A stretch of DNA of 64,000 nucleotides from an uncultured Chloroflexales bacterium (GTDB taxonomy: Bacteria; Chloroflexota; Chloroflexia; Chloroflexales; Chloroflexaceae): assembly GCA_937918935.1 (NCBI GenBank), contig CAKZSI010000026.1, positions 1 through 64,000 of the forward strand, in the 5' to 3' direction. The position numbers were made by a program, and so were the translations under genes. Below, in pieces: positions 33,997 to 35,475 of this stretch; positions within the stretch are counted from its first letter, which is position 1; every line of letters starts with the position of its first letter. The notes under the pieces are model-generated. The model did no database searches and was not told where the DNA came from. It was given only the letters and a program-made list of their open reading frames with translations.

Positions 33997-34071
33997 GCCC
34001 CTGGCCAGACAGGCAACTACACTGACGGCCGCGCAGCACAATCATGTCCATTGACATCGAAGGAGAAACGC

Positions 34072-34665
34072 ATGGCACAGGCGGCGAAACAGACTGCAGC
34101 GGCAAGTGAGGCGAGTCTGACAGTGGAGCCATCCTCAATGCCTGGACGGCTCACCGCCGTAACGCGCCACATCGCCCTGCTGGCGGCGATCATCGCGACC
34201 TGCGGGAGCCTGTTCTTCAGCGAGGTGCTGTTCTGGATCCCGTGCAAACTCTGCTGGTACCAGCGCATCCTGATGTACCCGCTGGTACCGATCCTGCTCA
34301 TAGGGATCGCGCGCGACGATCGCGGCCTCCATTGGTACGGGCTGCCGCTGTCGCTCACCGGTGTAGCGGTGTCGCTGGCGCACTACCTGGAGGTCCTGGG
34401 TGTCACCCCCCCCTCGCCGTGTGTGGGCAGCGTGCCTTGCAACATTGATTACCTGACACCGATCCTGACCGGGCCGCTGTCGTTTATCAAGATCCCCTTT
34501 CTGGCCCTGGTAGCCTTCTCCGTTATCAGCGTCATGCTCGGCAATTACGCCATTGCCGGGGCGCCACCCACTCCTCCGGGCCAGCGCCGCACCACCGTGC
34601 TCACCGCCGTCGCAATTGTCGTGGTGACGATCGCAGTGTTTGTTTTGCTCGGGTTGCTGTGGTAA
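34072..34665 (+). CDS. dsbB: Disulfide bond formation protein DsbB-like
   Basis: A 197-residue membrane protein with about five hydrophobic helices. The first Cys pair is in PCKLCWYQR (CxxC), the typical quinone-proximal redox pair; the second periplasmic pair is CVGSVPC in the loop before helix four. DsbB passes electrons from DsbA-like thiol oxidases to quinone. The fifth C-terminal helix is an addition to the four-helix core. No DsbA partner is adjacent. The start follows AAGGAGAA. Confidence 0.9.
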   Translation: MAQAAKQTAAASEASLTVEPSSMPGRLTAVTRHIALLAAIIATCGSLFFSEVLFWIPCKLCWYQRILMYPLVPILLIGIARDDRGLHWYGLPLSLTGVAVSLAHYLEVLGVTPPSPCVGSVPCNIDYLTPILTGPLSFIKIPFLALVAFSVISVMLGNYAIAGAPPTPPGQRRTTVLTAVAIVVVTIAVFVLLGLLW

Positions 34666-34724: not shown

Positions 34725-34733
34725 TGCTATACT
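34725..34733 (+). promoter_or_regulatory. Extended -10 promoter of the glmS transcript
   Basis: TGCTATACT with TATACT at 34728-34733. Transcription from about 34740 would place the ribozyme cleavage site some 70 bases into the leader. A TTGACA at 34691 is 31 bases upstream, too far to be its -35. Confidence 0.5.
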
Positions 34734-34810
34734 TCGCCGTACAGCGAGAAGTGATGCCGGTTGCGCGGGGAACGCAACCAGGAGGAAGGCCGCACCAGCT
34801 ACAGCATCCA

Positions 34811-35055
34811 AGCGCATGGACTCCGCGGTAACGCGGAGTTGACGAGGTGGAGGTTCCTCGCCGCGAGGCGAGGCTAAGGGTCAGACGGGGTCGCGGGCAG
34901 CCTGTGGCCCCCCGGCGCCGTCAGGCCGGTAACACGGCCGAAGCTGCACCGGTCACCCGAACATCGAGAGATCAGCGGATGCCTCCCAGGCGCCAGCGCC
35001 GCCTGTGAGCGGCTGGAGCAACGCCTCCCGGTAACGGGCAGGACAAGGCCAGCCG
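34811..35055 (+). ncRNA. glmS ribozyme (glucosamine-6-phosphate-activated) with a long insertion
   Basis: The sequence follows the glmS ribozyme consensus as I know it from Bacillus. AGCGC with the scissile bond expected between A34811 and G34812; GGACT; P1 as ACTCCGCG-GTAA-CGCGGAGT (34820-34839); AGTTGACGAGG; TGGAGGTT; then AUCGA and GCGGATGCC TCC (34963-34987), where CCTCC pairs with GGAGG (34849) to form P2; a P3-like stem (34993-35016) and a P4.1-like CCCG-GTAA-CGGG (35027-35038) follow. The unusual part is about 107 bases (34856-34962) between GGAGGTT and AUCGA. The glmS coding region begins about 420 bases downstream, as expected for self-cleavage that lowers glmS expression when GlcN6P is plentiful. 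Confidence 0.85.
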
Positions 35056-35475
35056 CAGCGACTCCCACAGTTCCTCTTCCCCACGAATCGGAACCCCGAT
35101 ACAGGACGCATCGCGCCCGGCTTTCAGCAGGCGCGTTCGGTTGCGTTGTGCCAGAAGCCCGCTGGCCGGCGCAGGCTCGCTGCGTCCTGATGGATGAAAA
35201 AGCCCTGTTTCTCTCTGCCCCTGCCCGAGGGGAGGATCGGGAGGGCGTTGCCCTTCCACGAACATCCTTTTGGCATTCCCGGTAGGGCACGCCGCGCCTT
35301 CGCCTACCCGCGCGGCACGAAACGAGGGTTCCTGGGAGGGCTCTGCCATCCCGGACCCTGCGAAGAAGGTCGCGGGCGCCTGCGGCCCCCCCCGCCGAGA
35401 CGAGATCGCGTTGGAGGAGTGACCTGAACGTGCGCGCAGGACACACATATCGTCATCATCAGGAGGAACACCAGC
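35056..35475 (+). other. Long glmS leader filled with family-A and family-C palindromes
   Basis: About 420 untranslated bases between the ribozyme and the start codon. They hold a family-C hairpin (GGGAGGGC-GTT-GCCCTTCC, 35239-35257), a GGTAGG/CCTACC stem (about 35281-35309), another family-C copy at 35333-35352 and a family-A core near 35375-35394. No open frame here is convincing. AGGAGG precedes the glmS start. Confidence 0.65.

Follow-up and report, generated by a model that had tools for sequence, protein, structure and literature searches.

A two-hairpin domain in the core of a glmS ribozyme from Chloroflexales and its relatives in Chloroflexales and Anaerolineae

The window analysed here is a stretch of 64,000 nt from an uncultured Chloroflexales bacterium, and it contains a Pfam-identified glmS gene preceded by a match to the glmS ribozyme family (Table 1). 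The gene starts 410 nt downstream of the match, which thus lies in the leader of the glmS mRNA. A glmS ribozyme with all its main blocks had been proposed at this place from the sequence, with a local search by the Rfam glmS model (RF00234) as a suggested check. That search bears the proposal out: the match reaches 43.0 bits against a curated gathering score of 37, is complete over model positions 1-167, and has an E-value of 3.3e-8 in 2 kb and of 1e-6 over the 64-kb window. It is the sole Rfam match above its own gathering score within the 64 kb. The gene upstream (34051-34665) encodes a DsbB-like disulfide bond formation protein (Pfam PF02600). A possible extended -10 element, TGCTATACT, is a weak promoter candidate, since a consensus scan found no -35/-10 pair; no consensus terminator was found either.

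Table 1. Features of the glmS ribozyme locus, in window coordinates.
Feature	Position	Strand	Evidence
Possible extended -10 promoter element, TGCTATACT	34725..34733	+	Kept in 5/5 genus members (leader alignment)
glmS ribozyme, entire RF00234 match	34800..35065	+	RF00234 scan
Predicted cleavage site A/G	34811..34812	+	RF00234 alignment
P2.2 5′ strand	34813..34818	+	Sequence; family counts at positions 5, 6 and 63
P1 hairpin, ACTCCGCG-GTAA-CGCGGAGT	34820..34839	+	RF00234 alignment
GACGAGG	34841..34847	+	RF00234 alignment; invariant in genus
P2 5′ strand GGAGG, with UU	34849..34855	+	RF00234 alignment, covariation, genus alignment
Two-hairpin insertion in J2/2.1, 107 nt	34856..34962	+	RF00234 alignment, folding, R1 model
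Hairpin A, 7 bp, GCGA loop	34856..34873	+	Covariation in 74 relatives
Linker CUAA (consensus YUAA)	34874..34877	+	Relatives' alignment
Helix B base, 5′ strand GGGU, pairs with 34955-34958	34878..34881	+	Covariation, genus alignment
Hairpin B1, genus-specific, within helix B	34887..34911	+	Genus alignment
Hairpin B2, genus-specific (34912-34917/34947-34952)	34912..34952	+	Genus alignment
B2 tip helix	34926-34930/34937-34941	+	Genus alignment
Helix B base, 3′ strand ACCC	34955..34958	+	Covariation, genus alignment
Linker GAAC (consensus GAAA/GAAC)	34959..34962	+	Relatives' alignment
AUCGA-GAGA-UCAGCGGAUG-CCUCC, 3′ strands of P2.1, P2.2 and P2	34963..34986	+	RF00234 and genus alignment
P3 and P4 supporting domain	34988..35057	+	RF00234 alignment
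L4 tetraloop GUAA	35031-35034	+	RF00234 alignment
glmS, glutamine-fructose-6-phosphate aminotransferase, 616 aa	35476..37326	+	Pfam SIS and GATase_6 (glutamine amidotransferase)

The cleavage dinucleotide, P1, GACGAGG, P2, AUCGA, UCAGCGG, P3, P4 and the GUAA of L4 are all found in the window. The architecture resembles that of the RF00234 ribozymes of B. subtilis, B. anthracis and T. tengcongensis, with a double pseudoknot of P1, P2, P2.1 and P2.2, a P3-P4 domain with IL4 purines and a GNRA L4, and an AG cleavage dinucleotide in a position before glmS. The active-site GACG is conserved, and the RF00234 alignment predicts A34811 as the scissile nucleotide, as originally proposed. Judged by sequence, both pseudoknots can form. 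P2.1 would pair C34843, G34844 and A34845 with U34964, C34965 and G34966 (CGA/UCG). The predicted P2.2 pairs are C34813-G34977, G34814-C34976, C34815-G34975, U34817-A34974 and G34818-C34973 (C2-G66, G3-C65, C4-G64, U6-A63 and G7-C62 in ribozyme numbering), with A34816 bulged. Positions 5 and 63 change jointly in the family: positions 5, 6 and 63 are A, U and A in the window and in most insertion-bearing glmS ribozymes, versus C, N and G. Whereas the RF00234 ribozymes bulge nucleotide 6 and pair C5 with G63, the P2.2 bulge has apparently moved by one in the window, so that the bulged base is A5 and A63 has U6 as its partner. C6 or A6 accompanies A63 in 14 of about 80 cases, and a pair there would be non-canonical.

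The main departure from the RF00234 ribozymes is the additional 107 nt in J2/2.1. This is the only large unaligned stretch of the match, and it occupies exactly the interval between GGAGGTT and ATCGA that had been assigned to it. The P2.1 pairs C38-G55 and G39-C54 have been described in B. subtilis numbering (PMC11602151). By sequence, the third pair is A40-U53, which places the insertion between U51 and A52 of that numbering; it ends one nucleotide before the pocket strand of P2.1. Because the second strand of P2.1 contributes to the cofactor pocket (PMC7125110), the insertion sits within the double pseudoknot of the core, in the J2/2.1 strand running from P2 to the P2.1 3′ strand, and not outside the catalytic core as first thought. 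Of the helices originally drawn in it, the hairpin at 34856-34873 is confirmed and has the support of relatives. GGCCG/CGGCC, placed at 34924-34939, comes close to a helix that the genus keeps about two bases away, the B2 tip helix. The GACGG/CCGTC helix (34884-34922) had to be rejected, as the facing columns are unpaired in the relatives' alignment.

The same module recurs at the same site in many relatives. Among 104 distinct insertions of at least 30 nt each, folding gave exactly two hairpins in every one, in the shared order hairpin A - YUAA - helix B - GAA(A/C) - AUCGA. The sequence between the hairpins is mostly CUAA or UUAA and that after them GAAA or GAAC; nearly all insertions have both the YUAA and the GAA linker, and hairpin A measures 7 bp in 76. 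An alignment of 74 compact sequences shows hardly any variation in UAA and GAA, and 95.5% of its cells are paired (P2 included), against 70.2% after shuffling. The covariation score of these sequences is 0.758, compared with 0.252 when shuffled and 0.21 when partners are slid by one column, and each of the 12 base pairs in the two stems varies on both sides. The pairing and covariation signal of hairpin A and helix B far exceeds chance. A chance fold of the window's insert is rejected by this covariation and by its folding better than 200/200 shuffles (z -3.84).

Matches listed in a pattern scan of named genomes, whose counts are to be read as "at least", together with additional scans of relatives, place a filled J2/2.1 in Chloroflexales, including Roseiflexus and Chloroflexus MAGs, and in many Anaerolineae, including Bellilinea caldifistulae, Levilinea saccharolytica and many MAGs. 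These inserts usually measure 37-60 nt, within a full range of 37-139 nt. The compact Roseiflexus, Chloroflexus and Anaerolineae ribozymes share the insertion site, hairpin A, YUAA, helix B and GAA with the window and differ from it in their short helix B. In some other families of Chloroflexota, as in the Firmicutes examined, this site holds 0-2 nt. The size called unusual in the original prediction is therefore so against Firmicute ribozymes; across Chloroflexales and Anaerolineae a homologous module occupies the site. Pattern-scan matches in Microvirga, Polyangiaceae, Terriglobia and Opitutales did not parse as glmS ribozymes and may be chance.

The covariance model R1 was trained on P2 together with the insert, leaving the window sequence out, and scores the window at 75.8 bits (E 8e-17); the rest of the window's genome yielded nothing else in the R1 scan. 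With its hairpin A - YUAA - helix B - GAA in J2/2.1, the window belongs to the two-hairpin subclass defined here through R1. Across the same 399 Chloroflexota genomes, RF00234 is positive in 134 and R1 in 85. Under strict search filters RF00234 misses 24 of the 85 R1-positive genomes, so ribozyme annotation is incomplete.

Several loci lie at the edges of this distribution. Insertion-bearing ribozymes occur in five MAGs labelled as other phyla: three Bipolaricaulota MAGs (L114, L137, L147), where no glmS, glnA or gltB was found downstream, a Bryobacterales MAG (L096, before glmS) and an Actinomycetes MAG (L080, before a glnA-like gene). Either misbinning or transfer may account for all five. 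In other families of the window's order (L023, L029, L031, L236), the 3′ strand of P2.1 is AGCGAAUAAUC or similar, not AUCGA, and a long stretch precedes it; in L023 this stretch begins like hairpin A and continues with GCUAAC.

The comparison with related genomes that had been suggested finds the insertion in five genomes of the window's genus, at 107, 107, 107, 106 and 80 nt. The two linkers, hairpin A and the four base pairs at the foot of helix B are present in all five, while the inner part of helix B forms a branch with two sub-hairpins, a structure partly supported by these five sequences. Identity over the five genomes is 100% in the P2 5′ strand and both linkers, 96% in the 3′ strand of the core and 89% in hairpin A, against 22% in inner helix B and 6% in the spacer to glmS. 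Selection hence acts to preserve the ribozyme and its junction but not the distal tip. Helix B is also enlarged elsewhere, with inserts of 139 nt (L050), 115 nt (L027), 111 nt (L043) and 107 nt (L217), so its growth is recurrent. The insert is a peripheral domain on a ribozyme that, to judge from its conservation, probably works.

That the ribozyme is degenerate and inactive, an inserted element having broken it, is very improbable. The whole-genome RF00234 scan scores 28.4 bits, below the cut-off, as such a ribozyme might, with an alignment spanning only 34800-34964; the low score probably reflects how the search handles so long an insert, and the local scan is above the cut-off. The core is conserved in 5/5 genus genomes and the spacer is not, and the insert is homologous to that of the whole order. 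It is also single-copy in the genome, hence not a mobile repeat, and an origin as a mobile element is rejected.

Neutral expansion at a permissive site, leaving a tolerated decoration with no role, has more in its favour and is nonetheless unlikely. The length and sequence of inner helix B are free to vary, complete inserts span the range given above, and other Chloroflexota of the same phylum have normal-looking ribozymes that lack the insert, which is consequently not needed for the fold in general. A neutral insert would, however, get lost or scrambled, whereas the order as a whole, and a second class, the Anaerolineae, retain the 7-bp length of hairpin A, the YUAA and GAA linkers and the pairing. 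The near-invariance of these unpaired linkers beside the pocket could instead speak for a second sensor or a protein-binding domain adding a further signal. This reading is improbable, as the stems hold no conserved unpaired sequence for a second binding site and the inner insert diverges even inside the genus.

Taken as a whole, the locus is very likely a functional glmS ribozyme-riboswitch of a Chloroflexota type, whose insert is the form taken in this lineage by an old and conserved two-hairpin domain in J2/2.1. In glmS ribozymes, binding of GlcN6P leads to a cut in the leader; the glmS mRNA, now bearing a 5′-OH, is degraded, and GlmS is lowered. By analogy, GlcN6P would bind the P2.1/P2.2 pocket in the window and the leader would be cut between A34811 and G34812. 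The cut mRNA with its 5′-OH would be exposed to RNase J, for which the genome has a gene (608 bits), and its degradation would result in less GlmS. Hairpin A and helix B, presumably directed away from the active site, would form, beside P2, a compact junction with P2 and P2.1 that most likely helps to fold or hold the P2/P2.1 pseudoknot. Inner helix B would be free to grow and is branched in this genus, its enlarged distal part most likely being a tolerated decoration. The glmS pseudoknot core would thereby accept a large structured domain a single nucleotide from the pocket strand, and nature offers an insert-length series (0, about 40-50, 107 and 139 nt) for testing that tolerance.

The UAA before and the GAA after helix B recall the UAA/GAN internal-loop motif, in which UAA and GAN face each other between two helices; the likeness seen here lies in the linker sequences. 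McCown, Roth and Breaker reportedly described, in 2011, Deinococcus-Thermus glmS variants with additional stems in the catalytic core. No Deinococcus is among the matches listed in a plasmid search for GlmS. It is possible that the module has been described earlier, for instance in that 2011 survey; if J2/2.1 stems in Chloroflexi were already on record, the window would be only a new member with an enlarged helix.

A second ribozyme is found in part of these genomes, 25 of the 85 R1-positive ones having two R1 matches. The second copies examined carry the same two-hairpin insert and mostly precede glutamine synthetase genes, in many Anaerolineae. At 29 loci, glnA starts 147-219 nt downstream of the second ribozyme; Anaerolineae examples of such leaders include L202, L206, L228, L284, L287, L289, L146 and L158, among others, and L228 shows the tandem order ribozyme-glnA-ribozyme-glmS. 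At 11 loci of one Anaerolineae family (L271, L273, L274, L276, L277, L279-L283, L285), glnA lies 2.2-2.7 kb downstream of a glnA-type ribozyme, in which GACGAGG is often CACGAGG or UACGAGG. The one such cluster examined by Pfam (L271) has genes for an ada-like methyltransferase and an EamA transporter between ribozyme and glnA. Four further copies precede glutamate synthase (L111, L145, L275, L286).

The 5′ strand separates glmS-linked from glnA-linked ribozymes almost perfectly. In counts that include some loci taken twice from two collections, AGCGC is found in 104 glmS, 1 glnA and 3 strong gltB matches, and AGCG[G/A]CUG in 41 glnA and 0 glmS matches, with A63 in 45/45. The AGCG[G/A]CUG form would place the P2.2 bulge at position 4. 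Covariation of positions 4, 5, 6 and 53 (63 here) was proposed from mutational data in 2020 (PMC7125110), and the natural shift of the bulge among nucleotides 6, 5 and 4 agrees with that hypothesis. Several glnA-linked ribozymes reach the RF00234 cut-off and are accordingly labelled glmS by Rfam. In a literature search limited to open-licence papers, no description of a glnA-linked glmS ribozyme or of the Chloroflexota insertion was found. Two glmS ribozymes outside glmS mRNAs were reportedly noted by McCown in 2011.

In a bolder reading, plausible but less likely than not, the J2/2.1 domain would be a functional module tuning the cofactor pocket, and its carriers a separate branch of glmS ribozymes within the Chloroflexota. 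That branch would have put its AGCG[G/A]CUG paralogue, with the shifted P2.2 bulge, to use in controlling glutamine synthetase, perhaps with a change in ligand or in cleavage behaviour. If the ligand is kept, the glnA copies would couple GlcN6P sensing to nitrogen assimilation. Beside the glnA-type ribozyme of L206, a 6S RNA-like match lies at 2553-2728 on the minus strand, with 45.9 bits against a cut-off of 46.4.
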